Shown here piece after piece: positions 36,861 to 63,355 of a stretch of DNA of 64,000 nt. The position numbers and the translations under genes were made by a program. The stretch's first letter is position 1; every line of letters starts with the position of its first letter. Source of the DNA: Halichondria panicea (taxonomy: Eukaryota > Porifera > Demospongiae > Suberitida > Halichondriidae); contig NC_087381.1 of the NCBI RefSeq assembly GCF_963675165.1, forward strand, positions 5,953,378-6,017,377, written 5' to 3'. Below the pieces are notes generated by a model. That model ran no database searches. It had not been told where the DNA came from and saw only the letters and a list, made by a program, of their open reading frames with translations.

Positions 36861-37502
36861 ATATGAATTATATTATTATTCCCAAAGAACACACACTCAC
36901 AGAATGAGGAGACTAAGAAGCCATCAAGGTACATACAAAACTCCCACTCCATGATACAGATGACGTATATCATTCTGCGTTCCATGTTGGAAACCATATC
37001 AAGGTGGTCAATAACTTGTTCAGCGAAAAACAGTTGCAAATTAATAATATATCGTAAGAGTCTTCTGTGGACCAAACAAAATTTTTGTTTTTGTAGGCGT
37101 CATCCTGTTGTTTGTTTATATGAATATGATTATCGAGCTCCATCACATGCAATTGCATGTTGGTGAGGATTTCACAATGGATTAGGAAGCAGGAGCCACA
37201 CATATTTTTGGTGGATAATCCTCTTGCAATGCATGCTTGCATTTTTTAATCAATGTTGCACAAATTCTCTACCAGCATGACACTATAATTGTGTATACAA
37301 AGCTACAGAGGTAGTGTGTATACTTGTATATACACATGAAATAGAGACACCTCACACCTAGTTCCTATATAATTAGTACACTAGTACTCAATTATAATCT
37401 CAAATCAGTTGGAAATTAATCTCAAAAGTCAGGACACATCAATAAACTACACATGCAGGTCCCAGTACACACTTATTTGAGAGATTCTACTGTAACTCAT
37501 AA

Positions 37503-37865: not shown

Positions 37866-39252
37866 TTAGTTCTTTTCTTCATTGCGTGGGGAACACTGCT
37901 TGCTTGGTAATGTGTTCATGCTCGATAACTCCACTCCGACAGTGCTAGAAGTATCTTGTGGATTAGTGCGTCCTTTCTCAGAGGACACAAAGCTATCAGT
38001 GTTTAATCGACAGTCACTAAAGAGTTTTATCCATATCTGGCGGAATTCAGTGCTTCGAAGGCCATATATAATAAAAATCAGCACACCTTGAGAGCCGACA
38101 AAGATCGAGAATATCACTTGGAATGTGAATGACAGCTCCACAAGACCAGAGCTTGTTGATACTAGTCCAAGGCCCCAACCCAGACCAAGTACAACTGATA
38201 GACACATTGTAATGACCAAATTCTTCTTAATATTCCTCAACTTTTGACGTACGGAGCTCTCGTTTAGTGACTGCAGGTTTCTAAAATGCTTGCAAATGGA
38301 CACCATGATGGCAACAAACACGATCCAGTTGAGTACGTAGATGATGACAAAAGGAAGAATGAATCCAAAATAGAAAGGCCATTCAGTAGGACGACAGCTG
38401 CATGAATAATGATGTGTGTATGTGATCGATGTGGATAATAATTATAATTATATACAGTAAACATGCCCTATTCATATAATATAATGAGTGTGAATGATTT
38501 AAACTACACAGAAATTTGCATCTGCATCTGCATTCAGTAAAAATCCCCCTTTCAATTTCAAACATGACTATAGAACTTGAAAAACTATAGGCACTTACTA
38601 GTATGGGTTGCTGTAGTACTGGTGTCCCGCCCCCGCACTGATGACAACAATTATAAAGGGCAGCACTGCATGTGGAGAAATAGGCACAAGAAGCACATAA
38701 TTATAGCAACAAAACTGAATGTACTATTATATCAACTTATGAGTATAATTATACACAAGCAATCTCTCATAATAAACAATACACACATTATAATTATTAA
38801 CGATAGCTTACACCAAGCTGGAATTCCAGCCTTCAGCATGAACTTGGAGGTGAGGGACTGAGATCCCATTACCACTACCAGTTTGAGGTAGAGCCAGACA
38901 GCTTCTACAGCCGACCAGGAGAAAAACACTAGGAAGAAGTACTGCAGGAGGGCAGACATGAGCCCACATAGAGGTGGGACACCAACAGTGAACCCTCCAA
39001 TGAGGAAGGTGAAGTACAGAAACATCAGTGAAATACTGATGTTGATGAGAATCTGGTTCTGTTTATCAGCGAGGAGTTTCCTACGGAATAGAATAGAAAC
39101 GCCGAACAAACTGGGCAGGTTGCTACTTACTTGCTGATAAAAATGGTGAATATGAATACCAGAAGACACATTGCAGACAAGCCCAGGCCAATGTATGTGA
39201 TGGTGCTCAAAGCAATTGCAAGGTTTTCAGGTAATGACGTTGGATTCAAATC
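37866..39252 (-). CDS. GPCR seven-transmembrane unit and C-terminal tail
   Basis: Exon 39,252-39,131 carries TM1 (IGLGLSAMCLLVFIFTIFI). Exon 39,080-38,812 carries TM2 (SLMFLYFTFLIGGF), the TM3 Cys (VPPLCGLMSALLQYFF) and SAVEAVWLYLKLVVV. Exon 38,665-38,599 carries TM4 (LLPFIIVVISAGAG). Exon 38,397-37,866 has the second-loop CRPTEW, TM5 (FILPFVIIYVLNWIVFVAI), TM6 (MCLSVVLGLGWGLGL), TM7 (VIFSIFVGSQGVLIFIIYGL) and a 70-residue tail to TAA at 37,868-37,866. The order and the Cys pair fit the class B/adhesion family. Confidence 0.9.
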
Positions 39253-42200
39253 CTGTAATCGTGAGGAGATCAAAATGTTGTAGTGTATATATTTTTAACT
39301 TACAAAGAGTATTCCAAAGTGGCCCAATTGTCTGCATTCGCAATCTTTTCTCCCATTGGAACTGGTTATCTCTTTACATCCAGCAGTGTCCCAAGCTCCA
39401 AACTGACCTGAAATAGCCGGAAGTAAAGATAGAAAATGAAAGGTATAGTGAGCTTGTTAAGTTATTAAAGCTGCAAAGTCCGGGAACTTACCTTGAGTCT
39501 TATACAGAGCACAGCTACTGTTTTCGATATTATTCTGCAGACAAATCACAAAGTAACTTACTTGCATATTTTTAATTTGTTCATAATGATATACCGTCAT
39601 CCTGATCAGAAAGCTAGTCCGTACTGGTACTGTGAGCACTGACTTGTTGGTCTGCAGACAAGCTAGTCTTGCAGCCACCACAATAGATCCCACCTGATTA
39701 GTACTTCTGTCCTCAGGAAGGAAAAGTACATCAGACAAAAAAACAGAGTAACTTAATCTTTGCCGAAGTGAACGGTTTGTTGTAGGGCATTCTTCAAGAA
39801 TCAAAGGGCTTAAGCGTAGAGAGGCTGTTGAGTTTTCGGTGTCTTCACTAAGGGAATCAATATTTGATCTGTTATCAGCTGTGTAATCATTAGCCATCAT
39901 CAGATCATCTTGGTCGATAACGCCAGTATTGTTCACTGCCTCTTCGACAGGGCCTAAATCAACAACAAATGTCTGGCCCTGGAAACTGTCAGGATCTAAA
40001 TCTTGCACTGTCATAGCAAATGTTTCAAAACTTAAAACAGTCTGATTGCTTGTGGAGTTTCTGGAAACAGTTGAAGTATTGAGATTGTCCAGAAATGTTT
40101 CGAGGCTTGCAAGAATCCTGTGCCGGGAGGGTAAACATCAACTTTGGCAAAGATCATGGGTTTCAACTAAACACCAACATGCAGGGAAAAGGAAAACAGC
40201 AAACAAATTGGATAAGAAAAGGCCTATCACAAAATACATAGCTGGAGTTAGCACCTTTTGTGAGGCTTACATGAAGAAACAACCCACAGTGACAATAATT
40301 ATACTTGCAACATACCTTGTTGATGAATTCATTGCTAGCTGGCTCTCATAGATGACGTCAACATCGGCTTGCTGAATATTGTTGATTGTTTGAAGATAGT
40401 TGTCCCTCACCTGGACATGTGATAGAGTCATAACTCATTGGCAAGTAACAATGTTCACCTCTTGGTTGACAGCAGCTTCTTCTGCTACTTGCTCTACTAT
40501 TGCAGTAACCAAGGTGATCTGACTTGCAGTCAGATTTTGAGGTTTGGATGTGATGTTGGCAATCTGATTGGACGCTTGAGTTGTCATATTTGATGAGAGT
40601 CCCTATAGGAAGGCAGAGAGATTCATTTCAATACAGCAAACCAATGAGGAATTCAGCTAGCTCTAACTGCCATATAGCAGATATAATAATTATATTTCGA
40701 GGGTATAAACATTTTCATGGTTTTCGCTGATCAGGCATCTACCGCGGACATTTATACCCACGAATTTACTATCGCATGTGCATGCATGCATGCATTGCAG
40801 AAAGGCTGTTATTCGGTAAAAACCTTTCTTTAGGTCATTCCGCGAAAGTTTATACCCTCAAAATATATACCCGCTGTACGGTATACCGTATATCAACGTT
40901 GGTTTTATGACTATCCATTCGTATTTTTAACATTCGTATAGCTCAGGATAGTGACGTTGAATCAATTGCGGTACAATAACTTCGTAGTTTTAATTTTCGT
41001 ATGATTCTTTTCAATATTAAATATACGAAAATTTCCACCATACGAAAATAACCCGCTATACGGTAACTAAAATATAATTTTTTTCGAAAAAGTTGGGTGC
41101 ATAGAAGTAAACAAGAATAGTCATGCTGCAGCAGTTGTCTAACAGATATATTTCAACTTCCTCAAACCACTTACGCTTGTAATCTCACACAATTCCCGGG
41201 ATATGTCTGAAAGTGTAGTCTCACAGCTGCTGAGGTCAAGCTCATCCTTCCAGATCCCTCCCTCACTGATTGACCCAGAGCACTGTCTGCTGACATTCCC
41301 TGCGAACACACCCAATACTTCAACACATGGACAAGGGGACAGTGCAGTAGACCCTAGTGCCGTGTTGGGCCAAGAATGACTCTGGTATATCTCCGCTTCA
41401 CAACCAGCTATAAACGTGTGTGCATTGTACACGTTAGATATATAGAGAGAGAATAGTTACGGAGCACATACGTTACATCCATTTTTGATGGGTTGGAGGG
41501 GAGGACATTAAACAAATGCAGGGCACACATAAATATTCACAATCATGCAGACGTTATTCATGACATAACTTGACGTGTGCCTTAATAAGCATATTAATCT
41601 TGACATTAATTATCATAATTATAGGCCTTTAAATTATATAGTCCATTGACCTTTCACCTTTTTTATGCCATTGTACTTATTATATAGTAGCGCAGTCTTG
41701 GAGTGAATACATGAATATTTCATTACGTTGACTATATAATAATATCGTTAGTTCATGCAACTATATAGTTAGACACAGCTATAGGGATATGGCACGGTCC
41801 AACTCCTGTGTGCCTCGTACGTAAGTTGTTATAGGCTCTGAGAAAGTTAAAAATTGCAGCTTATATGCATGTATAAATTATACTTGTAAAGGAGAAGAAT
41901 TGTGTAAATAAAAGATTGTGGAAGACGATGATAACATACACACGTTGTATACTGCATGTGGCAAGAATTAACTAGCCCTCGGCAGTTTTATGCCCATGAG
42001 CAGGCAAAGATAAACTCAAAATGTATCATCTCATGTGCACTTAGCACAGCCACATATATACGTCATGATTACTTTTGCACCAATACTTTTTTTATTTTCC
42101 CAGAGCCTGTAAATACTTTATAACAAATCTTACGTTGGCACTCAGGAGGCTGGCCAGACCATATCCCTCCACCTATACACAGTTGAGCCTCAGATCCAAC

Positions 42201-45200
42201 CAGAATGAAACCAAAATCACAGCTATATGTAGCCACTGTTCCCACATCATAATCAGTCATCATATCTGGAGCAAATGTAATAGTTCCGTTTGGAATGGGT
42301 TCCAGTGCTGAACATTGTCCTGTAAAGAATAATAATAAAGACATTAGTTGTATTTCTCAACATTATAGGGCTTTAATACTTTCTCAGGGACCTATATAAC
42401 AAATTTTACGTACGTTGGCACACAATAATCAGACCAGACCATATCCCTCCAGCTAAACACGTTCGAATCTCAGATCCGACCACCCGAATGAAGCCATCAT
42501 TACAGCTATGAGTAGCCACTGTATCCACATCAAAAGGAGCAATCGTATCAGGATCATATGTAATAGCTCCGTTTAGAATGGGTGCCAGTGCTGGACATTC
42601 CACCGCTGTAAAGGTAGTATACACAAAAGACTGTCACGAGATGATAACACACACACTCACATTTTTCAGTGGCAAGAATATAGCTGCATGAACAAACGAG
42701 TCGATCGGCTGGCACGTAGCTAATAGTTGGTTTGATTACACACAACTTGCGTGTGTATGTTCACAGACGCATAAAAATGCAAAGCATGCACATGCAGAGA
42801 CAAAAGTACATGCAAGTTTGCAAATGCTTAATTTTGTGTCCCCAGAGCCTATAATTATATCAAACGAATCTTACGTTGGCACACAGGAGGCTGGCCAGCC
42901 CAAGTACTTGAGATTGAGCACGTTCGAGTTGCAATTCCGACCAAAAAGAAACCAGGATTACATCTATATGTAGCAACTGTTCCGTCATTAAAATCAGGAA
43001 TAAAATCAGGAAAATATGTAATAGCTCCGTTTGGAAAGCTTGGCAGTTCTGGACATTGTGCTGTAAAGGAGAATAATTGTGTTAGTATAGTAGAATAATT
43101 GTATACAAAAGACATTGTATGTATGAACAACGATCTTACTAGCACATCGCAAACAGTTGGTTTGATTACACACAGGTGTTTGCATGTTCACACTCACAGA
43201 TGCAAAACATGCACATGCATATCATAAAAGTACAGTAGACTCTCGTTAATCCGGTCACCCTTGGGACAGTGCAGGTTGGCCGAAATAGCGAGGTGGCTGT
43301 ATTTCAGGAAATAGCCGCGGCGACCTTACCTCGAATCTAATAACTAATTTTGCGGTTCTTGTCTCGAGGATAATTACAAATCATTCGGCTCTCTATTTAA
43401 GCGTAATTCAATTTTATCTGACAAGCCACACCCAAAACCACACCCAAAACGTCATATTCAGCCGTAATACGTACATTGAAAAAACCTAGTTTGGGGCAGC
43501 CAGCAATGGTCAGTGTACGAAATAGGGGTGGACTTCAGGGTGAGTTTTGTGCAGTAAACATCTAGCTAGCAATCCGTCCAAGCCAAATGGCCAGTATAGG
43601 TGGCCGTACTTTAGAGAGCTGGAATAGCGAGAGTCTACACACACAGCTAAATACAAGCATAAGTTGAGATCTATCGACATGCATGACATCAGTTGTAGTG
43701 CATGATGATATAATTCAATGAGAATACTGAATGTACGTACCTCGGCACACAGGAATGAAGCCAGACCACCTCCTTGTGTCTAAACATATTCGAGTCTCAG
43801 ATCCGATACCTAGAATGAAACCATCATTACAGGTATGAGTAGCCACTGTACCCACATCAAAATCAGCAGTCATATCTGGATCATATGAAATAGCTCCGTT
43901 TGGAATGGGTGCCAGTTCTGGACATTGCGCTGTAAAGGAGTAAACAAAAGATTGTGGAAGACGAGCTGATAACATACACACATTGTACTGAATGTGGCAA
44001 GAAGTAACTAGCCCTCGGCAGTTTATACCTCACAACTAGTGATGTGAAAATCATAATGAACACCTAACAGCAACTACCCAACTATATACAGAGGAAAATC
44101 ATATTTAAACACTATGACAATGCTTTGAAATGGCATGCAGTGGTGCATGGTCAGGCATGTATAGGACTAGGATCACAGAAGAGTTAGCAAAGAAGTCTAG
44201 AAATAGCCTCTCGTTTTTGCTTGTTTTATTTGGCAACGAAGCTTTAACATCAAAATCTGCCATTACTAAAACTATTAACTTTGTGTGGATGATATCTATG
44301 CAGTTTATATAAACGTAGTGCTCAGGAGCAGCCAGGTGAGCAGATTCAGAACACACAAACAAACCAACAAGCAGACAGATAAAACTAAGATTACCTGTGG
44401 CTGCCCACGCACCTCGAGTTAATAACTATAGTTGCATGAATAATTAACGATAGGCTAGAAGATCGCCAACAGTTGGTTTGATTACACACAACCTGTGTGT
44501 ACATGTTCACACTAGCTCACAGATGAGAAGTATGAACAGGCAAAGATAAACTAAAAATGTATCATCTCATACACAGCTTTACATGCAATTAATGTATCAT
44601 TACTTTTGATGATTACCTTTGCACTAGAATAATAACTATAATAGTTTCTACTTTCTCAGAGCTTATAAATACTTTACAACCAATCTTACGTTGACACTCA
44701 GGAGGCTGACCAGACCATATCCCTCCACCTATACACAGTTGAGACTCAGATCCAACCAGAATGAAACCAAAATCACAGCTATATAAAGCCAATGTTCCCA
44801 CATTGAAATCAGCCATCATATCAGGAGTATATGTAATAGCTCCGTTTGGAATGGGTTCCAGTGCTGGACATTGCTCTGTAAAGGAGAATATAATTATCGC
44901 ATAAACATATTCCATTAGTAATCCATAACTTTCGACAGAATATTTAATTTTTAGGGCTTCTTATGGACCTAACAAATCTTACGTACGTCGGCACACAGGA
45001 ATGAAGCCAGACCATCTCCCTCCGGCTAAACACGTTCGAACCTCAGATCCGGCACCCAGCGTGAAACCATCATTACAGCTATGAGTAGCCACTGTTCCCT
45101 CATCAAAAGGAGCAATCGTATCAGGACCATATGTAATAGCTCCGTTTGGAATGGGATCTAGTGCTGGACATTCCACCGCTATAAAAGAGATGTATAGGGG

Positions 45201-46692
45201 AATAATTAGAATGCACATGCACATTGTACTGTTGCAAGAATATAGCTGTATGCATGAGCAAGCATATCTTGATAAATCTAAAATTTTCTTCCTCAAATGA
45301 ATCTTACGTACGTCTGCACGCAAGAATCAGGCCAGACCATATCCCTCCAGCTAAACACGTTCGAGTCTCAGATCCGAACACTCGAATGAAACCAGGATCA
45401 CAGGTATAAGTAGCCACTGTATCCACATTAAAAGGAGCAATTGTATCATATGTAATAGCTCCGTTTGGAATGGGTGCCAGTGCTGGACATTCCACCGCTG
45501 TAAAGGATATATACAACAATTGTCACGAGTTGATAACTCACACACATATTGTTCAGTAGCAATAATAGAATAACGAGTCGATCGGCTAGCACATCGAAAA
45601 CAGTTGGTTTGATTATACACAACTTGTGTGTGCATGTTCACAGACGCATAAAATGCAAAGCATGCACATGCAGAAGCTATATAAGTACACTGCTAAGTAC
45701 AAATTGTAAATACTTAATTTTGTGTCCCCAGCCTATACTTATAATTATCACAAGAAACTATTACATTGGCACACAGGAGGCTGGCCAGCCCAAGTCATTG
45801 AGATTAAGACGTTCGAGTTGCAATTCCGACCAGAAAGAAACCAGGATCACATCTATATGTAGTAACTGTTCCGTCATTAAAAATTTTATGTACGTTGGTG
45901 CACAGGAATGAAAGCAGATTATCTCGCTCGGGCTAAACACACTCGAGTCTCAGATCTGACCACTAGAACAAAACCATCATTACAGCTATGAGTACAACTT
46001 CTCCATACAAGCAGTTATAGGTTCTACTGGAAGCCATAAACTTGACCAGACCCGCCCACCACTACATGCAGCTGCTGTTTTGCATATTGCACAAGTCTAT
46101 AGTCTACTAACACTGTACTGTACTGCACTCACAGTAACTGTACTCCTACCTCTGAGTCACAGCCTTGACTATAAACACAATTAAAGCAAGAATTGAACTG
46201 TAGTGTTTCATGCCTCATGATGAACATGTGGCAGTAAACTACTAGCTATAGCTAGCTTAGGTCAATATGACAATAGCACAAAACAAAGTCTACAAACACT
46301 TTTTGCATCGATCTGTATTGCTACAAATTGTTAAAATGATTCAAAAGTTGAATAGTGCTTGTATACATAGGAAGTAAAATAATTGTGGCTCATATTCACT
46401 TATTAGGATACGGAAATCAAGTATTTTGTACGAAAAGATTGGGCAACACGAGCTTATATAACATATACACGTATTGTATAGTAGTAATACATTTACTCTG
46501 CTGTGTTGGAAAGCATGAACAACGATCGGCTAAAGCACATCGGAAAAAATTAAAAACAACCTGTTTTATATAGCGCATGCATGTTTACATGCACTTACTG
46601 CTATCCATGGTGGGATCATCACCAGCTCCAAGTGAACTATGAAGAAGGACAGACAATAGGAACATGCAACACAATCTTTGTGACCTAGCCAT
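37866..46692 (-). CDS. Adhesion-class GPCR with CCP repeats, HRM and GAIN/GPS domains
   Basis: Predicted surface receptor of 1,191 residues; the exons sum to 3,576 bases, in frame. Exons 5' to 3': 46692-46599; CCP exons 45497-45312, 45178-44987, 44875-44690, 43929-43741, 43060-42875, 42605-42414, 42319-42134; HRM 41407-41175; GAIN 40602-40459, 40410-40316, 40117-39562; GPS 39534-39492, 39407-39304; 7TM 39252-39131, 39080-38812, 38665-38599, 38397-37866. By residue: leader 1-31, seven CCP to 470, HRM to 548, GAIN/GPS to 862, seven helices, then a tail ending PRNEEKN. Every junction keeps GT-AG and phase. Adhesion GPCRs couple extracellular binding to G-protein signalling. CCP modules usually bind proteins or glycans; the ligand here is unknown. 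Upstream CCP exons may also splice into this gene. Confidence 0.85.
39304..40602 (-). CDS. GPCR GAIN domain and GPS motif
   Basis: Exons 40,602-40,459 and 40,410-40,316 encode a helical subdomain (QNLTASQITLVTAIVEQV). Exon 40,117-39,562 encodes the beta-rich part. Exons 39,534-39,492 and 39,407-39,304 give the GPS: SSCALYKTQG, FGAWDTAGCKE and DCECRQLGHFGILF. The Cys and Trp pattern is complete. However, the usual cleavage tripeptide H-L-T/S is Q-L-G, so self-cleavage is not expected. Confidence 0.85.
41175..41407 (-). CDS. GPCR hormone-receptor (HRM) domain exon
   Basis: Phase 1 to 0 exon encoding GCEAEIYQSHSWPNTALGS, SPCPCVEV, VSRQCSGSISEGGIW and LDLSSCE. The W-P-x-T-x-x-G, C-P and R-x-C spacing with a late Trp matches the HRM domain found N-terminal to GAIN in many adhesion GPCRs. 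The intron on its 3' side (40,603-41,174) carries two MITEs, at about 40,690-40,868 and 40,880-41,064. Confidence 0.75.
42134..45497 (-). CDS. GPCR CCP (sushi) exon array, seven modules
   Basis: Seven exons of 186-192 bases, each one CCP module with four Cys and a Trp, all phase 1-1. Three recurring types are seen: ECPALAPIPNGAITYDPD...TCLAGGIWSG; QCPELPSFPNGAITYFPD...CSISSTWAGQPPVC; and QCPALEPIPNGAITYTPD...LCIGGGIWSGQPPEC. Acceptors are nearly all TTACAG or TATAG and donors GTAAGA or GTACGT. The intron sequence is repeated with the exons, as expected from serial duplication or gene conversion. Confidence 0.9.
43233..43638. mobile_element. 406-bp pogo/Tigger-like MITE, copy 1
   Basis: Ends CAGTAGACTCTCGTTAATCC and CGAGAGTCTAC complement, preceded by TA. 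The same element at the same position in the paralogous intron (48,997-49,430) shows that it was inserted before that duplication. Confidence 0.6.
45766..46010 (-). pseudogene. Two fused CCP half-exons, decayed
   Basis: The 45,880-45,771 part encodes only the 3' half of a CCP. A base pair is missing relative to the copy at 54,953-55,074 ('attaagacgttc' against 'attaagcacgttc'), which breaks the frame. The 46,002-45,893 part is another 3' half (SCNDGFVL) with an in-frame TAA after CLARAR. Both lack the first CCP Cys and an acceptor. They look like products of deletion between repeats and are left out of the gene model. Confidence 0.7.
46599..46692 (-). CDS. Signal-peptide first exon, copy C
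   Basis: ATG at 46,692; the 94-base exon encodes MARSQRLCCMFLLSVLLHSS then LGAGDDPTMDSS and ends in phase 1 at GTAAGT. It joins the first intact CCP exon at 45,497 in frame. It is nearly identical to 55,813-55,906 and close to 63,262-63,355. Confidence 0.85.
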
Positions 46693-46737
46693 AGTCAGAA
46701 TCTTACGAGGAATGTCATCAATCGGCTCACTAACTAG

Positions 46738-46824
46738 CTATATACATATATAGCTATGTATATATAGCCCAAATAATATTATATGACATCGATCAACTGC
46801 TTGCATGGTTGACACAGCTAATGG
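46738..46824 (-). promoter_or_regulatory. Putative promoter of copy C
   Basis: TATA-rich stretch 46,741-46,770, then a block at 46,785-46,824 (GACATCGATCAACT and GTTGACACAGCTAATGG) conserved upstream of all three signal-peptide exons, although the introns around it diverge in copy A. Promoter function is inference from position and conservation. Confidence 0.5.
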
Positions 46825-48341
46825 TAACTGTTGTTATTGTGTTATTGTTAATTTAGTTTTGACATCACAGTATCCATTATCCTCGTCAGCCAAACCAATA
46901 GGCTCATATATAACCATTACTCCAGGTTGTCAGTTTATTGCTACACCTATAGATATTATGTTGATGTATCTATAAATTCCCTATTAAGGTTACGATGCAG
47001 TGTTTGTATAATTCAAGAGTTTATATTTGTATTATTTATGTGTCCATACTGTTGCATTGCACTGCAGCGCTTGCTAGCTATCAGTATGCTAACTAGACGG
47101 CAAAACTTTATCGCAAAAATCGTGTGGTCAGAGCTGATTTTAGTCGTCAAATAGCTATTAGAGCAAAAAATACTCACTATAATGCAGAACTAAACAGTCT
47201 ATACCAACAGCTTACGATATTCCTGAGGGTGGTTCAAAGAGTTCTTTCCTATCTATCTACAAACTGAAGCAAAATGGCTATTTTCTACTCTATATACATG
47301 CACAAGCGCGAGCTAACTCGATGACTGTTAAGAATTGTTTCGAGTCACCCTGCCCCTTTCCTCGTTTAAATAAAAGAGCATGCATATAAAATGACGACTA
47401 TAATTATACAGTCAATACAGCTTGATTTACGATTATAGGTATAATTACTGTGTGGGCGAACACTGCCTTACAGCAACACCATAGTCACATAATTAAATGG
47501 CAACAATTTTGCAATTTCAACACACTGCATAAACTGATTAGGCCCTGATCAATTATACTCAGAATAATTTTAGCATAATAGGTGATGAATGACAGAAGAA
47601 TAATCATTACATTAATAGTTTTGCATAACGACGTTTCATTCAGGAAGGTGGATCAATTCGAGTTGTAAAGAGTTAGGGGGATAGGAAACGGAGTGGTGCA
47701 TGTGATGATTTTACATTGAATCTGCAGTGGAGCCTCGAAAATATATACAATTAACAAAAAGACTACTTAACATAAGCATGAAGGAGGGCCTTGTTGTGGT
47801 AGATCCAGGAAATAAAAAAGGGGGGTTCGAGTTTTTGCATCATTCCCTACAGTTTGTCTAGTAGATGCTTAGCTTATCCTGTTCATCGTTTTTCCTGAAA
47901 GAACTAGGCAATAGAAGGATTTTAAAAAGTCATCAGCTAGCAGCATTATAGCCTATAGATATATAAGTTGATCAGTCATAATGTGTCACAGGGGCGTGGC
48001 AATTTACACTACTACGCAACAAAAAACACCATTTTGGACGAGAAGAGCCGCTCTAGCAAAGAAGAGACTGGTCTAGCTCCCTATAACCTTATGATTTTGT
48101 TTCCATTCACAAGAGTAGTATACTAGCTCCCCCCGTTATAGGGCAACCTTGAGAAATGTACGTGAAGAGCAGCTGTTGAGCATTCACTAATCTAGCAGCT
48201 ACACAATCAATGTTGAGTATTACACCTCAAGGCATACTTTGGTAAGGATACAGGCAGCTCGCCCTAGCTCGGACCGGCCACTCGGTCTCATGCTATTAAT
48301 TTCCATAGGCTCATAGGCTCATTCTAAGCGCTATTCCTTAC
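46825..48341. repeat. Spacer between units B and C, duplicated at 56,025-57,520
   Basis: Almost identical to 56,025-57,520. I see no transmembrane exon, stop exon or mobile element in it, so the preceding CCP exon (48,342-48,527) has no visible local 3' end. Confidence 0.7.
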
Positions 48342-51300: not shown

Positions 51301-54300
51301 AGCAAGAATAGAATAACGAGTCGATCAGCTAGCACATCGAAAACAGTTGGTTTGATTACACACAACTTGCGTGTGCATGTTCACAGACGCATAAAATCCA
51401 CATGCAGTGACAAAATATAATACTCTTGACACAGTTAGTTTGCAAATGCTTAATTTTGTGTCCCAGAGCCTATAATTATATGACAAACGAATCTTACGTT
51501 GGCACACAGGAGGCTGGCCAGCCCAAGTACTTGAGATTGAGCACGTTCGAGTTGCAATTCCGACCAGAAAGAAACCAGGATTACATCTATATGTAGCAAC
51601 TGTTCCGTCATTAAAATCAGGAATAAAATCAGGAAAATATGTAATAGCTCCGTTTGGAAAGCTTGGCAGTTCTGGACATTGCGCTGTAAAGGAGAATAAT
51701 TGTGTTAGTATTGTAGAATAATTGTACACAAAAGACATTGTATGTATGAACAACGATTGGCTAGCACATCGCAAACAGTTGGTATATGTTCACACTCACA
51801 TATGCAAAACATGCACATACATATCACAACATATCTTATGCACTTGGCACACACAGCTAAATAGATTAACTTTCAGCATGACATCAACGCACCTCGGCAC
51901 ACAGGGGTCAGGCCAGACCATATTCCTGAGATTAAACACGTTCGAATCTCAGATCCGGCACCCAGAATGAAACCATCATTACAGCTATGAGTAGCCGCTG
52001 TTCCCACATTAAAAGGAGCAATTGTATCAGGACCATATGTAATAGCTCCGTTTGGAATGGATGGCAGTGCTGGACATTCCACCGCTGTAAAGGTAGTATA
52101 CACAAAAGACTGTCACGAGATGATAACACACACACACATTGTTCAGTGTCAAGAATATAGAAAACAAGTCGATTGGCTGGCACATCGCAAACAATTGGTT
52201 TGATTACACACAACTTGCGTGTGCATGTTCACAGACACATAAAATACAAAGCATGCACATGCAGTGACAAAATATAATACTCTTGACACAGCTAAGTGCA
52301 TGCAATTTTGATTTTTGTCCCTATAGAGTCTATAATTATATCACAAACGAATCTTACGTTGGCACACAGGAGGCTGGCCAGCCCAAGTACTTGAGATTGA
52401 GCACGTTCGAGTTGGAATTCCGACCAGAAAGAAACCAGGATTACATCTATATGTAGCAACTGTTCCGTCATTAAAATCAGGAATAAAATCAGGAAAATAT
52501 GTAATAGCTCCGTTTGGAAAGCTTGGCAGTTCTGGACATTGCGCTATAAAGGAGAATAATTGTGTTAGTGAAATAATTGTATACAAAAGACATTGTATGT
52601 ATGAACAACGATCGGCTAGCAAATCGCAAACAGTTGGTTTGATTACACACAGGTGTGTGCATTTTCATACTTACAGATGCATAAACACGCACATGCCAAA
52701 ATATATAGTGTACTTGGCACACGCAACTAAAGGCGTGCATAAGTTGAGATTATCAAATTTATAACTTCCAACAAATTCACAATACCCTAATAAATTACAT
52801 ACCTCGGCACACAAGAGTGAAGCCAGACCACCTCCCTGTTTCTAAACACGTTCGAGTCTCAGATCCGATACCCAGAATAAAACCATCATTACAGGTATGA
52901 GTAGCCACTGTTCCCTCATCAAAATCGGCAGTCATATCAGGACCATATGAAATAGCTCCGTTTGGAATGGGTGCCAGTTCTGGACATTGCGCTGTAAAGG
53001 AGTAAACAAAAGATTGTGGAAGACGAGCTGATAACATACACACATTGTACTGCATGTGGCAAGAAGTAACTAGCCCTCGGCAGTTAATGCCTCACAACTA
53101 GTGGTGTGAAAATCATAATGAACACCTATAGCAGCAACTAACTAACTATTATTATACTAGGATAATCAGATTTAAACACTATGACAATGCTTTGAAATGG
53201 CATGCAGTGGTGCATGGTCAGGCATGTATTATAATTATTAGGACTAGGAAAAGTTAGCAAAGAAGCCTAGAAAGTGCCTCTCGCTTTTGCTTGTTTTTAA
53301 CGAAGCTTTAACATCAAACTCTGCTACTACTAAAACTAATAAATTTGTGTGGATGATATCTATGCAGTATAAACGTAGTGCTCGGGCGCAGCCAGGTGAG
53401 CAGACTCAGAACACACAAACAAACCAACAAGCAGACAGACAAAACTACGATTACCTGTGGCCGCCCACGCACCTCTAGTTAATAACTATAGTTGTATGAA
53501 TAATTATTGATTACACACAACCTGTGTGTGCATGTTCACACTCACAGATGAGAAGCATGAACAGGCAAAGATAAACTATCATCTTATACGCAGCTTTACA
53601 AGCAATTAACGTATCATTACAATTACCTTTGCACTATAATAGTTTCTACTTTCTCAGAGCTTATAAAAATACTTTACAGCCAATCTTACGTTGGCACTCA
53701 GGAGGCTGACCAGACCATATCCCTCCACCTATACACAGTTGAGACTCAGATCCAACCAGAATGAAACCAAAATCACAGCTATATAAAGCCAATGTTCCCA
53801 CATTGAAATCAGCCATCATATCAGGAGTATATGTAATAGCTCCGTTTGGAATGGGTTCCAGTGCTGGACATTGCTCTGTAAAGGAGAATATAATTATCGC
53901 ATAAACATATTCCATTAGTAATCCATAACTTTCGACAGAATATTTAATTTTTAGGGCTTCTTATGGACCTAATGAATCTTACGTACGTCGGCACACAGGA
54001 ATAAAGCCAGACCATCTCCCTCCGGCTAAACACGTTCGAACCTCAGATCCGGCACCCAGCGTGAAACCATCATTACAGCTATGAGTAGCCACTGTTCCCT
54101 CATCAAAAGGAGCAATCGTATCAGGACCATATGTAATAGCTCCGTTTGGAATGGGATCTAGTGCTGGACATTCCACCGCTATAAAAGAGATGTATAGGGG
54201 AATAATTAGAATGCACATGCACATTGTACTGTTGCAAGAATATAGCTGCATGCAAGAGCAAGCATATCTTGATAAATCTAAAATTTTCTTCCTCAAATGA

Positions 54301-55906
54301 ATCTTACGTACGTCTGCACGCAAGAATCAGGCCAGACCATATCCCTCCAGCTAAACACGTTCGAGTCTCAGATCCGAACACTCGAATGAAACCAGGATCA
54401 CAAGTATGAGTAGCCACTGTATCCACATTAAAAGGAGCAATTGTATCATATGTAATAGCTCCGTTTGGAATGGGTGCCAGTACTGGACATTCCACCGCTG
54501 TAAAGGATATATACAACAATTGTCACGAGTTGATAACACACACACACACATTGTTCAGTAGCAATAATAATTATAATAACGAGTCGATCGGCTAGCACAT
54601 CAAAAACAGTTGGTTTAATTATACACAACTTGCGTGTGCATGTTCACAGACGCATAAAATCCACATGCAGTGACAAAATAATTATAATAGAGTATTGTAA
54701 CCGCTGTAAAGGATAGGCACAAAAGACTGTCATGACATTGTTCAGTGTCAAGAATATAGCTGCATGAATAACGAGTCGATCGGCTGGCACATCGCAAACA
54801 GTTGGTTTGATTACACACAACTTGCGTGTGCATGTTCACAGACGCATAAAAATGCAAAGCATGCGCATGCAGAAACTATAAGTACACTGCTAAGTACATG
54901 CAATTGTAATTTTGTGTCCCCAGCCTATACTTATAATTATCACAAGAAACTATTACATTGGCACACAGGAGGCTGGCCAGCCCAAGTCATTGAGATTAAG
55001 CACGTTCGAGTTGCAATTCCGACCAGAAAGAAACGAGGATCACATCTATATGTAGCAACTGTTCCGTCATTAAAAACCTTATGTACGTTGGCGCACAGGA
55101 ATGAAAGCAGATTATCTCGCTCGGGCTAAACACACTCGAGTCTCAGAACTGACCACTAGAACAAAACCATCATTACAGCTATGAGTACAACTTCTCCATA
55201 CAAGCAGTTATAGGTTCTACTGGAAGCCATAAACTTGACCAGACCCGCCCACCACTGCATGCAGCTGCTGTTTTGCATATTGCACAAGTCTAGTCTACTA
55301 ATGTACTGTACTGAACTCACAGTAACATTACTGTACTCCTACCTCTGAGCCACAGTCTTGACTATAAACACAATTAAAGCAAGAATTGAACTGTAGTGTC
55401 TCATGCCTCATGATGAACATGATGTGGAAGTGAACTGCTATAGCTATAGCTCAGGTCAATTAATATGACAATAGCACAAAACAAAGTCTACAAACACTTT
55501 TTGTATCGATGTATTGCTACAAATTGTTAAGATGATTCAAAAGTTGAATAGTGCTTGTATATATCGCATAGGAAGTAAAATAATTATGGCTCATATTCAC
55601 TTATTAGGATACGGAAATCAAGTATTTTGTACAAAAAGATTGGGCAACACGAGCTTATAACATAGTTATACACGTATTGTATAGTAGTAATACATATACT
55701 CTGCTGTGATGGAAAGCATGAACAACGATTGGCTATAGCACATCGCAAACAATTAAAAACAACCTGTGTTTTATAGTTTGATTAAAGCGCATGCGTGTTT
55801 ACATGCACTTACTACTATCCATAGTGGGATCATCACCAGCTCCAAGTGCACTATGAAGAAGGACAGACAATAGGAACATGCAACACAATCTTTGTGACCT
55901 AGCCAT
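48342..55906 (-). CDS. CCP-repeat receptor unit B (signal peptide plus 13 CCP; no local 3' end)
   Basis: Exons 5' to 3': 55906-55813 (leader MARSQRLCCMFLLSVLLHSA), then CCP exons 54497-54312, 54178-53987, 53875-53690, 52991-52803, 52543-52358, 52084-51893, 51683-51498, 51238-51053, 50929-50738, 50620-50435, 49732-49544, 48872-48684 and 48527-48342. All are phase 1-1 with GT-AG sites. The last module (ALPAIDNGRVQYSPDF, ends PSCEG) has a good GTAAGG donor, so the transcript must continue. No anchor or stop exon is seen before the next first exon at 46,692. It may splice to the CCP/HRM/7TM exons of unit C, or be an incomplete duplicate. The role is unknown; binding is expected from CCP modules. 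Confidence 0.7.
48997..49430. mobile_element. 434-bp pogo/Tigger-like MITE, copy 2
   Basis: Same ends and orientation as 43,233-43,638 and in the homologous intron. It is absent from the third homologous intron right of 52,803. Confidence 0.6.
54953..55188 (-). pseudogene. Two fused CCP half-exons in unit B
   Basis: The counterpart of 45,766-46,010. The 55,074-54,953 part keeps its frame (ATRTCLISMTWAGQPPVCQ) but its donor is changed to TGTAAT and its 5' half is gone. The 55,188-55,082 part has the same in-frame stop. It is excluded from the gene model. Confidence 0.65.
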
Positions 55907-55939
55907 AGTCAGAATCTTACGAGGAATGTCATCAATCGG

Positions 55940-56024
55940 CTCACTAACTAGCTATATACATATATAGCCCATATAATATTATATGACATCGATCAACTGC
56001 TTGCATGGTTGACACAGCTAATGG
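55940..56024 (-). promoter_or_regulatory. Putative promoter of copy B
   Basis: TATA-rich run at about 55,953-55,980 and the conserved block 55,985-56,024, as in copies A and C. Confidence 0.5.
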
Positions 56025-57520
56025 TAACTGTTGTTATTTTGTTATTGTAATCTACTTTCGACATCCATTATCCATTATCCTTGTCAGCCAAACCAATAGG
56101 CTCATAACCATTACTCCAGGTTGTCAGTCTCTTTACACCTATAGATATTATGTTGATGTATCTATAAATTCCCTATTAAGGTTACGATGCAGTGTTTGTA
56201 TAATTCAAGAGTTTATATTTGTATTATTTATGTGTCCATACTGTTGCATTGCATTGCACTGCAGCGCTTGCTAGCTATCAGTATGCTAACTAGACGGCAA
56301 AACTTTATCGCAAAAATCGTGTGGTCAGAGCTGATTTTAGTTGTCAAATAGCTATTAGAGAAAAAAATACTCACTATAATGCAGAACTAAACCAACAGCT
56401 TACGATATTCCTGAGGGTGGTTCAAAGAGTTCTTTCCTATCTATCTACAAACTGAAGCAAAATGGTCGGCTATTTTCTACTCTATATACACAAGCGCGAG
56501 CTAACTCGATGACTGTCAAGAATTGTTTCGAGTCGCCCTGCCCCTTTCAAATAAAAGAGCATGCATATAAAATGACGACTATAATTATACAGTCAATACA
56601 GCTTGATTTACGACTATAGGTATAATTACTGTGTGGGCGAACACTGCCTTACAGCAACACCATAGTCACATAATTAAATGGCAACAATTTTGCAATTTCA
56701 ACACACTGCATAAACTGATTAGGCCCTGATCAATTATACTCAGAATAATTTTAGCATAATAGGTGATGAATGACAGAAGAATAATCATTACATTAAGTTT
56801 TGTATAACGACGTTTCATTCAGGAAGGTGGATCAATTCGAGTTATAAAGAGTTAGGGGGATAGGAAACGGAGTGGTGCATGTGATGATTTTACATTGAAT
56901 CTGCAGTGGAGCCTCGAAAATATATACAATTAACAAAAAGACTACTTAACATAAGCATGAAGGAGGGCCTTGTTGTGGTAGATCCAGGAAATAAAAAAGG
57001 GGGGTTCGAGTTTTTGCATCATTCCCTACAGTTTGTCTAGTAGATGCTTAGCTTATCCTGTTCATCGTTTTTCCTGAAAGAACTAGGCAATAGAAGGATT
57101 TTGAAAAGTCATCAGCTAGCAGCATTATAGCCTATAGATATATAAGTTGATCAGTCATAATGTGTCACAGGGGCGTGGCAATTTACACTACTACGCAACA
57201 AAAAACACCATTTTGGACGAGAAGAGCCGCTCTAGCAAAGAAGAGACTGGTCTAGCTCCCTATAACCTTATGATTTTGTTTCCATTCACAAGAGTAGTAT
57301 ACTAGCTCCCCCCGTTATAGGGCAACCTTGAGAAATGTACGTGAAGAGCAGCTGTTGAGCATTCACTAATCTAGCAGCTACACAATCAATGTTGAGTATT
57401 ACACCTCAAGGCATACTTTGGTAAGGATACAGGCAGCTCGCCCTAGCTCGGACCGGCCACTCGGTCTCATGCTATTAATTTCCATAGGCTCATAGGCTCA
57501 TTCTAAGCGCTATTCCTTAC
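56025..57520. repeat. Spacer between units A and B
   Basis: Duplicate of 46,825-48,341. No exon for a membrane anchor or stop was recognised. Confidence 0.65.
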
Positions 57521-60500
57521 CTTCACACGATGGAGACACATCCGACCATAGTCCAGTTCCTTCACACTCTAAAACCATCTGTCCAATCAAACGGAACCCA
57601 AAGTTGCAAGTGTACGTGGCCTCAGTACCCACGTTAAAATCAGGGATGAAGTCAGGCGAGTATTGAACCCTTCCATTGTCTATGGCTGGCAATGCACGAC
57701 ACAGAGCTGTGCGTGTGTGTTTTTGTAAAATACATGCACAATGAGATACGTATCGGAACTTACAAGTGATTCAAAGCACACTTTGCAATTATCAGGTGAT
57801 AAAATAATTCTACACAATAATGGTAGACCGTACTGTTTTTCCAGAGCTAAATTGAATCTTACGTTCACACACAGGAGGCTGGCCAGACCATGTCATTGAG
57901 ATTAAGCACGTTCGAGTTGCAATTCCGACCAGACGGAAACCAGGATCACAAGTGTATGTAGCCAATGTTCCGTCATCATAATCAGGAATAAAATCAGGAA
58001 AATATGTAATAGCAGCTCCGTTTGGAATAGGTTCTAGTGCTGGACATTGCGCTGTAAAGAATAATAATTATGTAAAACAGTCGTACACAAAATATTGGGC
58101 AACACGAGCTGATAACACACACACACACATATTGTATGCATGAACACCGATCGACTAGGCGCATCACAAACAGTAAGTTTGATTGCATACAACATACATG
58201 CCACGTACAACATGTATGTTCATACTCACAGACGCATAAAAATGAAAAGCATGCACATGCATGCAGATAAAAGTATTGGCACACACAAGCTAGTATATGC
58301 ATGCACAATTCTACTTTTGACATGACATTAAATGAATTTTTACTGCATGATAATAGATAATTCGATATAACCTTAACGAATTTACGTACCTCGGCACACA
58401 GGAATCAGACCAGACCACCTCCCTCTGTCTAAACACGTTCGAGTCTCAGATCCGGCACCCAGAATGAAACCATCATTGCAGCTATGAGTAGCTACTGTAC
58501 CCACATCAAAAGGAGCAATCGTATCAGGACCATATGTAATAGCTCCGTTGGGAATGGGTGCCGGTGCTGGACATTCCTCCTCTATAAAAGAGATGTATAT
58601 ATAGTGTATAATTAGGATGCACAATCATGCACATTGTACTGTGGTAAGAATATAGCTCCATATCTTAAATATTACGTACGTCGGCACACAAGAATGAGGC
58701 CTGACCATATCCCTCCAGCTAAACACGTTCGAGTCTCAGATCCGATCACCAGAATGAAACCATCATTACAGGTATGAGTAGCCACTGTATCCACATCAAA
58801 AGGAGCAATCGTATCAGGATCATATGTAATAGCTCCGTTTGGAATGGGTGCCAGTGCTGGACATTCCACCGCTGTAAAGGATATGCATTTTTGTATAGTA
58901 TATAAAAATTGTCACGAGTTGATAACACACACACACATCGTTCAGTGTCAAAGAATATAGATGCATGAATAACGAGTCGATTGGCTATAGCACATCGCAA
59001 ACAGTTGTTTTGATTGCACACAACTTAATTGCATGCATGTTCACGGCGGACTCATAAAATGCAAAGCATGCACATGCAGTGACAAAATATAATACTCTTG
59101 ACACAGCTAAGTGCTAAATTTTTGATTTTGTGTCCCCAGAGCCTATAATTATAATTATCACAAACGAATCTTACGTTGGCACACAGGAGGCTGGCCAGCC
59201 CAAGTCATTGAGATTGAGCACGTTCGAGTTGCAATTCCGATCAGAAAGAAACCAAGATCACAGCTATATGTAGCCACAGTTCCGTCATTAAAATCAGGAA
59301 TAAAATCAGGAAAATATGTGATAGCTCCATTTGGAAAGCTTGGCAGTTGTGGACATTGCGCTGTAAAGGAGTGTTAGTAGAATAATTGTACACAAAAGAC
59401 ATTCGTAATTTGTATGTATGAGCACCGATCTGCTAGCACATCACAAACAGTTGGTTTGATTACACACAGGTGTGTGCATGTTCACACTCACAGATGCATA
59501 AAATGCACAATCATGTATGCATATAAAAATACAACATATCTTGTGCACTTGGCACACAGCTAAATACATGCAATTCATAACTTTTGACATGGCATTAGTT
59601 GTAGCGCATGATTTACTGTAACGAATTACATACCTCGGCACACAGGAACCAGGCCAGACCACCTCCCTGTTTCTAAACATGTTCGAGTCTCAGATCCGGC
59701 ACCCAGAATGAAACCATTATTACAGCTATGGGTAGCCACTGTATCCACATCAAAAGGAGCAATCGTATCAGGATCATATGTAATAGCTCCGTTTGGAATG
59801 GGTGCCAGTGCTGGACATTCAGGGTCTGTAAAGTTGGCAATTAATGTGCAAAAAACGAGTCGATAACTGTACCACTAGTGCCTCAAAATTAACCATAATT
59901 TCCCAGAGCTGCATGTGTACTTGAAATATTATATTAATAGTCACCTACCTATATACATGCGTGTCCAGTTATAATAATGAGAACTTTCACATTCATAAGC
60001 TATAATTGGTATCGAGTATGATTAATAGTGACACTGAGGACGCTGAAGTAAAAATAATGGAAGCTATTATTATAGTGCCAATCAAGTTATCACAAGGAAA
60101 GAGTTGCAAACCCAAACATGACTCTTACCTCTAGATTGATTATAAATATAAGATGCCAAAGATGCCAAAATACTGACAGTGAATTGTAACCTGGCTTACC
60201 CCCGCAGCTTGGTATAATTCCTGACCACACTCCATTCTCACAAGTCCTTCTTCGGTTTCCTACTAAAGTTCCAACATCACACTCGTACGTGGCAACTGTT
60301 CCGTATGGGTGACCGCCAATATCTGTGAAAAACTCAAAGTCATATGAGATGGAGCCACCAGAGAAAGCAGGTAGGTCAGGACAGGCACCTAAAGGGGTGG
60401 GCAATATAATTATACAGTATCCCACAATGCTTGTACATGCAGGTAACTAAAATTACTGATATACCAAGCAACTATATAAGCGTAACATCCAGGGATGTCT

Positions 60501-63355
60501 TTAAGCAACTACAACATAATTATAGTACAATCACGTATCATTTGCATGCATGCGTTTTTATGTTTCTAGCGTATCATATAGACCACTGTCCACATAACAA
60601 GTATACTGTGGCGGATCTAGGATTCTTGAAAGGGGGGTTGTTTCCAAGGCTCTGAGTAGGCCACGCCCAACTAGGCTCTGCAGGTCAAGGACTGTTAAAT
60701 TTACCTAAAAAAAGGTCGTCACTTCTTCGAAACAGTGAGCATGCGCATTAACACACCGAATGTTTTCCTAAAAAAAAGGTCATCACTTTTCATAAGCAGT
60801 CTGCATGCACTACGCTGGAGAGTTTTTAGCCTTCATAGTCACTGAAACGGCACAGACAAAGCTTCGCAGGACTAACAAGGACTAATTAAAGGTAAGTGAG
60901 AAGTGCATGTGAAAGCTAGTAAGAAAGGAACAACTTGCTAACTAGTTGCTTTAGCCTCTCACTCACTTCTTTCTCAAAGGGGGATTCAATTGAACCCAAA
61001 GAACCCCCTCTGGATCCGCCACTGTTTTACATGGAGCTCTACATGCAAGCGATTACAAAAAAACTACAAATGTGCCTCAACGATAATAGCACGCTCACCT
61101 TGATCATCAATAATGGTTATAGTGTACCGAGTTCTGGGCAGGTAGCAGTTCTCTGTTGCAATACACTGCACCATCACCTCCACCACTTCCACTGGCTCTG
61201 GAATGTCATCATCCAAAATAGTGACTACGTATGGAACACGAGGTAACGTGTTGCCAGCTCTCCATCGCAGGTTGCCATTTCGATAACGCCCACCATTATT
61301 TCGTAATAGAGGAGCAGTATAATCAGAACCTGCATGCATGGAAGACATGTATTGTCTAATTATTATAGACAATAGCAATTAAGAATTTACTGCATAATAA
61401 TGGTTGATGATTGCATAATAATGGTATAAACTCAACACCTGCTATGGCTGTGAGGGATTGAGTGGCAACAAATGCTCTACTACGCTCTGATCGATCACCA
61501 CGGGTGATACTAAACATGAGATCAACCGTTCCAACAGTTTCCAGTACAACTTGATCCACTGCTCGAATCCAGGCAACTGCATAAAACAGAGAGAAATAAT
61601 AATCATTAAAATTTCAAAATAATTTTTGAGCAACTTACGTCCAACTGGCTCCATTTCAAAGGGCAAAGGATAAGCAAATGAAGCTCTAAAAGAGAAGCCG
61701 TATGCAAATCCCCAGAATGCCCCATCTTCAATGTCGTCATAAGTAAGGTTGAAATTTCCTCGGCCTATGTTACTGGTAGCTCCATAAGCACATACCTGAT
61801 CAGTACCATCCACTCGACAGTTGATGGCTTCATATTGGTCGGGAATACTAGTTTCTCCATTTATACGAAACCTCTGTTGATTTGCTTCAGTATTATTGAA
61901 GATGCGAGTGGGCAAAATATAGCTCAAATATCCGTTGAACTGAGTGGTCAAATCCTTGGCTGTAGTGAAGCTGTAGCTGTTCAAATAGGAGTTAGCTGCT
62001 GGTATGTAATATAGGGCAGGATCAAAATTTTCAGAGCGACCTAAAACCGGTTCAGCATCACGGCCGAGTGTATATCCAGCCATAGTAACGGGTTGAGAGG
62101 ACGTAACACAACAATAGGTCTGAGCACTCTGAGGTGTTCGGCACTCAGCGTATTGTCCTGCACCCACTGTGGCTGTGTAAACACCATCTCCAGCGCTAAC
62201 AAGTCCAACTCGATTATTCCCATCAGCTGAACTTGCTGCACACTCACAATTGATCGTTACTAGTGCTCCAGGAGATACTGAGCCAATTCTATACAGTTCA
62301 CCGCTTCGTCTGACAGCAAAGGGAGCCGTAAAAAACAGGTCACCGTATGTTGGATGAGGTGGCAATTGTTCTACAAGATAGTCACAACTTCCATCATCAG
62401 TAGGAGTTCCACATTGATGCCCAGAAAATACAGCCAATGGCTTGTCAGAAGTGATGATAGAGCCTGTAAGATCGTCATTATTGCTATTCATCACAGTGTC
62501 AAAACGATTGAAAGCCCTCCCATATGTTGCTTCAACTCGAGCACTTGGGTTGCCAGAACTTGGTAGCACCCAAGTGGGATGGGTTTGGGTTTGGGAGGCT
62601 TGTACACTGACAGTAGTGTCATCTTTGCAAGGAGTAAAGAGAAATCGACTCTGAAACGACTCTCCACCAAATACATTAGATGAAAAGATAAAATACTTGT
62701 AACTTTTAGCACTTGGAAATTCGACGCAGTTAATAGCCATGTACGCATCAGTTGTTGTATTTTCATTATTGAGCACATATACAGTGAGTTCATCGTTTGC
62801 ATTTTCTGCTGTTATAAAGAGTCCTTTTTGGCTGTCAGCTTCATCGTTATCTCCATTGTCTTGCACGGCTATGTCTCCTTGGCCATTCCTTCCTGCTGGC
62901 AGATTAATGAAAGTGAATTCTCCACGTACAGTCCTTTCCGTACGGGACCATAACCCAGATCCAGGAGAGGTCTCAGTGAATCCTGCTCCATTAACTCCCG
63001 GCCATCGTGTCTCTAGGGTGAAACTTGAGCTCTCCTGTTCAGTGGTGATGAAAAGACCGATCTGCTGTAATGTGGTTGCTGGTCCTTCATTCGCATTGTT
63101 CATGAAGGCCAAAGCAAATTTACTTCCTCTGGTTTTTGGAGCATTAGGATCTGTAAAAGATATTCATGCACTACTTTGAATTTCTGTAGCAGCTATTATA
63201 ATTTTACCTGATATGATTCACTATAGATACAATGAAATGCATGCAAGACAATTGCACTTACTGACATCCAGGGTGGGGCCATCACTAGCTCCAAGTGCAC
63301 TATGAAGAAGGACAGACAATAGGAACATGCAACACAATCTTTGTGACCTAGCCAT
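57521..63355 (-). CDS. IgGFc-binding-domain, Calx-beta and CCP protein (unit A; no local 3' end)
   Basis: Exons 5' to 3': 63355-63262 (leader), 63150-61639 (IgGFc-binding-type domain), 61576-61439 and 61329-61099 (Calx-beta), then CCP exons 60388-60200, 59825-59634, 59360-59175, 58871-58680, 58581-58390, 58051-57863 and 57706-57521. All junctions are phase 1. That gives about 1,100 residues with an open 3' end (donor GTAAGG). Extracellular location is expected. No transmembrane or stop exon is visible before the unit B first exon at 55,906. It is either completed by splicing to later exons of the array or truncated by duplication. The combination suggests a large adhesive or recognition molecule; that role is inference. 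Confidence 0.75.
60608..61022. mobile_element. 415-bp hAT-like MITE (GTGGCGGATC ends)
   Basis: Inverted ends GTGGCGGATCTAG and GGATCCGCCAC; related to 26,155-26,557. It lies in the intron between the Calx-beta and first CCP exons. Confidence 0.65.
61099..61576 (-). CDS. Calx-beta domain exons of unit A
   Basis: Exon 61,576-61,439 encodes VDLMFSITRGDRSERSRAF and exon 61,329-61,099 continues GSDYTAPLL...ILDDDIPEPVEVVEVMVQC and YTITIIDDQG. The start strand, the acidic D-D-D-I-P-E-P-x-E segment and the I-I-D-D-x end are Calx-beta hallmarks. Confidence 0.8.
61639..63150 (-). CDS. IgGFc-binding-type N-terminal domain exon
   Basis: A single 1,512-base exon, open throughout. Motifs that fit the IgGFc-binding N-terminal family (as in FCGBP): FNRFDTVMNSNNDDLTGSII, TSDKPLAVFSGHQCGTP, CDYLVEQLPPHPTYGDLFF and QPVTMAGYTLG. 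Cys pairs are frequent. The exon starts in phase 1 after TTTTACAG and ends in phase 1 at GTAAGT. In vertebrates this domain is found in secreted mucus proteins; binding to IgG cannot apply to a sponge. Confidence 0.85.
63262..63355 (-). CDS. Signal-peptide first exon, copy A
   Basis: ATG at 63,355; encodes MARSQRLCCMFLLSVLLHSA then LGASDGPTLDVS and ends in phase 1 at GTAAGT. Same length and phase as copies B and C. Confidence 0.85.

Follow-up and report, generated by a model that had tools for sequence, protein, structure and literature searches.

Can a single membrane end serve several starts strung along the same row of ectodomain exons? The question is raised by a locus of the sponge Halichondria panicea in a stretch of 64,000 nucleotides of contig NC_087381.1 (hereafter C5, positions 5953378-6017377; the whole stretch is called the window). 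Read on the minus strand, three first exons that encode near-identical signal peptides (ATG at 63355, 55906 and 46692) open the units A, B and C, each of which continues into an array of CCP exons; the exons for HRM, GAIN with GPS, and the seven-transmembrane (7TM) domain occur intact once in the locus, downstream of unit C only (Table 1). This is the arrangement described in an earlier note on the same DNA, which proposed that transcripts from all three starts could share the 7TM end. Examination of exon phases, paralogues and duplication history indicates a modular, duplicated locus resembling those of adhesion G protein-coupled receptors (GPCRs), plausibly with alternative promoters; that the A and B starts share the single 7TM end is, to judge from the sequence, an evenly balanced proposition.

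Three starts and their predicted products

All three first exons exit in phase 1 with GTAAGT, and every one of the 27 intact CCP exons (7 in A, 13 in B, 7 in C) has an AG acceptor, a GT donor and phase 1-1, as had been supposed for the internal exons. The acceptor tract holds 9-12 pyrimidines in 15 positions in 25 of the 27 CCP exons and 6 in 15 in the two, here called CRALP exons, that end arrays A and B. Splicing in silico to the 7TM end yields predicted products of 1200 amino acids from the C start, 2015 from B and 3084 from A, with 7, 20 and 27 CCP modules, the numbers anticipated approximately in the earlier note, and each product is one open frame with a final stop only. Each first exon thus has the potential to join the common exons in frame, as alternative promoters would require. 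The head consisting of an IgGFc-binding exon and a Calx-beta-like domain is present in unit A only, among the three.

A promoter-like block, in which a TATA motif is followed by AGTGA, is found at A, B and C, and by its sequence is a candidate promoter in each case. Starting 49-92 bp 5' of the ATG, the pattern is found at 15 of the family's 22 first exons, and 64 of 3500 control stretches (140 bases each) contain it; the contrast is descriptive because the pattern was picked after the alignment had been viewed. The description of these blocks as conserved needs qualification. The upstream regions of B and C are common over kilobases, and only 3 of the 94 bases of their first exons differ, whereas the match of A to C 5' of the ATG spans no more than about 65 bp in BLAST (with the exon included, 81% over 164 bp) or, judged by eye in a multiple alignment, about 100 bp.

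Under alternative promoters, splicing of an RNA from A or B would join the unit's final CCP exon to the first intact CCP exon of the unit that follows; the intervening first exon could be passed over because the first exons are without a good upstream acceptor. Such an RNA would reach the only 7TM end, giving receptors with 7, 20 or 27 CCP modules, and the IgGFc head would occur on the longest of them alone. That the first exons of B and C might also serve internally was considered and rejected: each has one open phase-1 reading, but its AG is preceded by just 7 pyrimidines in 14 positions. Treating them solely as first exons is a judgement, not a proof.

Paralogues and the ends of IgGFc-headed genes

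Modules were mapped in 27 stretches, and all copy counts for the family are lower bounds. Matches to the first exon, alone or together with the block upstream, number at least 21; three of these are in the window, and 20 of the 21 lie on C5. Five additional short matches were listed, and a profile search found a divergent first exon in paralogue P11, bringing the number to at least 22. The IgGFc exon has at least 13 full-length or near-full-length copies including that of A (at least 73% identity), and the last 7TM exon at least 11 including the window's own (at least 74% identity), all on C5; three paralogues of the latter have one stop within the matched stretch.

Precedent for reading over an embedded first exon comes from six loci (P1, P2, P4, P5 and P8 twice) at which two successive first exons precede the IgGFc exon. 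The farther of the two exits in phase 1 with GTAAGT at all six, and a phase-1 acceptor, CAG/AT, is present in 12 of 12 listed IgGFc exons (that of P3 taken from flanking sequence). The nearer first exon carries a 5-base insertion that leads to a phase-0 exit in P4, P5 and both P8 loci, has lost its donor in P2, and is in phase only in P1, where its donor is weaker. Because the nearer exon is out of phase or donorless in five of the six loci, a product that stays in frame there would have to begin at the farther start and skip a dead first exon. Since the four phase-0 cases share one insertion event, about three independent losses are counted; in P9 the nearer first exon is reduced to a 63-base remnant. 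A weak in-phase GTGATG inside some nearer first exons is a possible donor. The paired first exons lie on C5 at 6.239/6.245, 6.300/6.303, 6.383, 6.481/6.483, 6.610/6.613 and 6.622/6.626 Mb, and their signal exons are of two types in a fixed order before the IgGFc exon (for example, MASSNNL farther and MASSQSL nearer). The proposal that RNAs skip the later first exons is consistent with the phases, the open frames and this family precedent; we infer from sequence the further steps, namely the transcription of A and B, the reach of their RNAs to the 7TM exons and the order of events set out below.

What follows an IgGFc head differs among paralogues. In P4, P5 and P11 a signal exon, IgGFc, Calx, CCP, further Calx modules, CCP, HRM, GAIN and 7TM are contiguous on one strand, with no intervening first exon and no lesion detected in the end; P11 is the most divergent of the copies that link an IgGFc head to a 7TM. 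P1 combines an A-type head, the same CRALP exon, more CCP exons, HRM, GAIN and 7TM, also with no first exon between, and its intron before HRM is 83% like that of the window; P1 keeps an open IgGFc exon, but its CCP and GAIN exons have between them two frameshifts and a stop, and the last exon ends prematurely by a few codons. The IgGFc-type head that the earlier note placed on one product, and that A alone carries, is therefore joined to a 7TM in three paralogues, and to a broken one in P1. P3, P8 and P9 have an IgGFc head and end in a single-pass transmembrane exon with a tyrosine-containing tail, preceded in P3 and P9 by an Ig-like exon; a shifted frame where the IgGFc exon of P3 begins, and a stop in one of its CCP exons, make P3 evidence of architecture, not of function. 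These three loci (C5 6.21, 6.45 and 6.63 Mb) have an IgGFc-Calx-CCP head and DYDYIS-like motifs in the cytoplasmic tail, and the single-pass tail exon matches many sites on C5. Ten IgGFc heads were traced in the 3' direction (the window's and those of P1-P5, P7, P8, P9 and P11, leaving out Q1, Q2, P12 and the first, truncated IgGFc copy of P8): five have a 7TM farther along (P1's broken), three a single-pass end, and for two no end was found, namely P2 and P7, the latter followed to the end of its contig.

It is a serious possibility that the units are separate neighbouring genes, of which C is a complete 7-CCP receptor and A, perhaps also B, ends locally. A would then encode a secreted protein of about 1103 amino acids, with its CRALP donor read through to SCEGKE and a stop, or with an unseen short exon; B, a chimera as argued below, may likewise end at its CRALP exon. 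Several observations favour local ends and so weigh against a shared 7TM. P2 shares A's type of head and its CRALP ending, and neither a 7TM nor a single-pass tail was found in the following 13.9 kb (a single-pass tail exon nearby, at 6403652, is on the opposite strand). P1 is the closest counterpart to an A head with a 7TM, yet its tail is broken; and the heads of P1 and P2 are constrained though neither has an intact 7TM, their IgGFc exons differing by 26 nonsynonymous and 20 synonymous changes (P of about 0.002-0.005 against neutrality). If the CRALP donor of A or B is left unspliced, three residues (GKE) are added before an in-frame stop, and this stop is kept in four of four CRALP copies. 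Past the CRALP exon, the likeness of A to P1 and P2 extends for about 220 bp, mostly noncoding, and then fades, as at a gene end. An architecture much like that of C stands alone in P6, which has a signal exon, Calx modules, CCP, HRM, GAIN and 7TM without IgGFc; unit C by itself is a complete receptor, and A and B are unneeded to explain its 7TM. The precedent itself is imperfect: three of the farther first exons, in P9, in the second P8 pair and (one base off) in P5, do not match the promoter pattern in its strict form, the IgGFc exon of the first P8 locus is truncated, and so is the CCP match of P9. Given the GKE stop and the lack of a 7TM within 13.9 kb in P2, the earlier argument that a good donor means that the transcripts must go on was too strong.

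Other features are harder to reconcile with local ends. The CRALP donor is itself kept, as GTAAGG or GTGAGG, in four of four copies; P4, P5 and P11 connect the head to a 7TM; and the 13 CCP exons of B are open and retain their splice sites despite B having no end of its own. The gap between A and B has no canonical poly(A) signal (no AATAAA or ATTAAA in 57520-56100, where about 2.1 are expected by chance), and blastn and tblastx comparisons among the tails of A, B, P1 and P2 found no common open exon that could be terminal after CRALP. The missing signal is weak evidence for continuation; in the tail of P2, AATAAA and ATTAAA occur once each, about 1 kb along, which is chance level. A hydrophobic candidate exon in the tail of A (56944, 37 amino acids) was rejected: it lies outside the part shared with P2, which has hydrophobic candidates of its own.

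Duplication history and constraint

Two truncated duplicates, the alternative offered in the earlier note, proves wrong in detail. A block of about 3.4 kb that comprises the tail of A, the gap between A and B and first exon B is repeated in tandem as the tail of B, the gap between B and C and first exon C; on this sequence evidence unit B is a chimera that arose by tandem duplication, with a C-like head and an A-like tail. Unit A is a gene type distinct from C, with its own constrained head. Between about 58.0 and 56.6 kb the two copies of the block differ at 4 of 1400 sites, compared with about 4.6%, along with indels, over the next 1800 compared sites (56598-54755), which suggests that the tails of A and B were recently homogenised. 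Near-identity over about 1.4 kb between these tails would also fit an assembly artefact in which B and C are one unit, or its two haplotypes, placed in tandem. The divergence and indels of the adjoining 1800 sites are excessive for one unit assembled twice, and although divergence at that level alone is still compatible with two haplotypes, we consider an artefact very improbable. Further duplication is indicated by longer matches, both inside single arrays and from one array to another (79-91% identity over 1.5-3.1 kb, for instance), and in a tree of 70 CCP exons the units are interleaved.

The locus would belong to a family of adhesion-GPCR-like genes that is expanding in tandem and whose signal, head and CCP exons behave as phase 1-1 modules. 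The ancestral gene probably consisted of a signal exon, an IgGFc and Calx-beta-like head, CCP and/or Calx modules, and HRM-GAIN-7TM; a block with promoter, signal exon and CCP exons would have ended up within the CCP array, and a later tandem duplication would have produced two embedded first exons, B and C. A hairpin-like element of 46 bases is present at window positions 56765-56720 and, 91-93% identical, at five paralogue sites (P4, P5, P8 twice and P9), where it adjoins a motif of the intron preceding the CCP exons; in the window this motif is at 55661, and the 1.06 kb that include first exon B are therefore absent at the five sites. Clean insertion of a B cassette at a common site was considered, but the adjacency may be coincidence, given that one of the matching pieces resembles a hairpin and the other is a motif found repeatedly in introns preceding CCP exons.

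Constraint was estimated from the ratio of nonsynonymous to synonymous substitution rates (dN/dS) and from indels. The IgGFc exon of A has dN/dS of 0.34-0.57 against the 10 paralogues compared. The signal is less clear for the HRM exon (0.21-1.35 against five paralogues, with few changes, the value of 1.35 being against P6) and for the last 7TM exon (0.26-0.63 against five paralogues). In each of seven comparisons, whether between units or inside one, CCP exons vary less than their own introns, with 6 indels in exons and 117 in introns overall; because these comparisons overlap, the test was restricted to the two that do not (B with C, and B with A), which have 1 indel in 1480 exon sites and 34 in 1709 intron sites. 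That indels are far fewer in CCP exons than in introns argues that unit B is not simply decaying, although gene conversion blurs the picture. The identity of B to C was rejected as proof, by itself, of purifying selection on B, as the low divergence extends through the intervening introns.

These estimates bear on the idea that C alone is of consequence and that B, perhaps together with A, is a largely or wholly functionless by-product of duplication. B was born of tandem duplication, its first two CCP remnants are dead, and relic first exons are common across the family; moreover, gene conversion can hide decay, so that B may still fit such a description. On the other hand, 13 of 13 full-length CCP exons of B are free of lesions, with indels far rarer than in introns, and the IgGFc exon of A is constrained against all 10 paralogues, which makes this explanation unlikely.

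Elsewhere in the window, a CCP relic on the plus strand at about 35500 lies close to the degenerate copy of the exons for transmembrane segments 1-4 (TM1-TM4), and a tandem repeat (about 0.85 kb, 95.5% identity) occupies 9325-11033. A second large cluster of CCP exons is on contig C4 at about 1.88-2.60 Mb.

Table 1. Features of the receptor locus in window coordinates (a slash marks an exon boundary; a point marks features given without strand)
Feature	Position	Strand	Remarks
First exon A	63262..63355	-	Signal peptide; phase-1 exit TCA/GTAAGT; TATA/AGTGA block immediately 5'
IgGFc-binding exon of A	61639..63150	-	PF17517, 122.3 bits; phase-1 acceptor CAG/AT
Calx-beta-like domain of A	61099..61576	-	Two exons, ~61576-61439 and ~61329-61099; 20.6 bits, under the Pfam curated cut-off of 27
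CCP array A	57521..60388	-	7 intact phase 1-1 exons
Last CCP exon of array A (CRALP)	57706-57521	-	Ends GAAG/GTAAGG
First exon B	55813..55906	-	Phase-1 exit GTA/GTAAGT; TATA/AGTGA block upstream
Two broken CCP remnants 3' of first exon B	54961..55189	-	One with in-frame stop; other with 5' half missing
CCP array B	48342..54497	-	13 intact phase 1-1 exons; final exon a CRALP copy identical to that of A
First exon C	46599..46692	-	Phase-1 exit GCA/GTAAGT; TATA/AGTGA block upstream
Broken CCP remnants 3' of first exon C	45769..45996	-	Homologous to the remnants after B
CCP array C	42134..45497	-	7 intact phase 1-1 exons
HRM exon	41175..41407	-	PF02793, 29 bits
GAIN, GPS and 7TM exons	37866..40602	-	Carry the only stop codon; GPS 29.8 bits; 7tm_2 95.2 bits when spliced
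Degenerate duplicate of TM1-TM4 exons	36300..36862	-	84.9% to 38612-39192
Tandem-duplicated block, copy 1	54737..58148	.	A tail, A-B gap, first exon B; 94.9% to copy 2
Tandem-duplicated block, copy 2	45548..48969	.	B tail, B-C gap, first exon C; 94.9% to copy 1

Receptor type and comparison with known systems

The predicted C product is an adhesion GPCR by domain content, because its Sushi, HRM, GPS and 7tm_2 matches exceed the Pfam cut-offs. The 7tm_2 domain, which is of the secretin/adhesion type, scores far above its cut-off of 20.6, and the GPS adjoining TM1 (PF01825) above its cut-off of 22.5; a long ectodomain is provided by 7 Sushi stretches and HRM on C, and on A by an IgGFc-binding domain that exceeds its cut-off of 25.6. 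A cleavable GPS has HL before S or T. The GPS of the locus (39304-39408) reads CECRQLGHFGILF, identical in four paralogues (P1, P4, P5 and P6), and without the usual HL its self-cleavage is doubtful. Adhesion GPCRs without cleavage exist, so that the lack of HL is no bar to membership, and the family may consist of non-cleaving adhesion GPCRs.

The length of adhesion GPCR ectodomains is thought to influence signalling. If A and B do share the 7TM end of C, promoter choice would tune the number of CCP modules from 7 to 27 and add or drop the IgGFc head at one locus, a simple route to receptor diversity in an animal without adaptive immunity. Tentatively, the whole family might be regarded as a construction kit, in which the signal exon, mostly with its promoter block, repeats before or inside rows of phase 1-1 modules, one membrane end serves several ectodomain lengths because embedded first exons are read over, and the IgGFc head is also carried on single-pass ends elsewhere; an early-branching animal would in that case possess a receptor cluster whose repertoire depends on the choice of an embedded start. 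Even if A ends locally, the cluster illustrates how phase-matched exon duplication passes one head among single-pass, 7TM and possibly secreted forms.

Judged by titles and the abstracts shown, the collection of papers searched yielded no description of repeated first exons along one CCP array. In H. panicea itself, a figure legend covering several receptor classes lists GPS, HormR, 7TM, Sushi, IgGFc-binding, Calx-beta and GAIN (PMC8242945), and HRM occurs in at least 8 of 40 adhesion receptors of Amphimedon queenslandica (PMC4302439). The present locus shares with these sponge adhesion GPCRs an HRM near GAIN/GPS, a 7tm_2 domain and a modular ectodomain, but the portions of the two reports consulted contain no account of several first exons along one CCP array, nor of one head on both 7TM and single-pass ends (PMC4302439, PMC8242945). 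An internal promoter is described for ADGRB1/BAI1, in which an alternative promoter in intron 17 yields a shorter ectodomain with the same 7TM, much as proposed here for B and C; the inner starts of the present locus differ in being copies of the outer promoter and signal exon (PMC11711277). Conjoined genes, the read-through chimeras of neighbours, are a known class, and as in these the exons of same-strand neighbours would combine in one RNA; unlike them, all CCP exons here are phase 1-1, so that the joined product would be in frame, and related loci seem to need the reading over of a dead first exon (PMC2953495).

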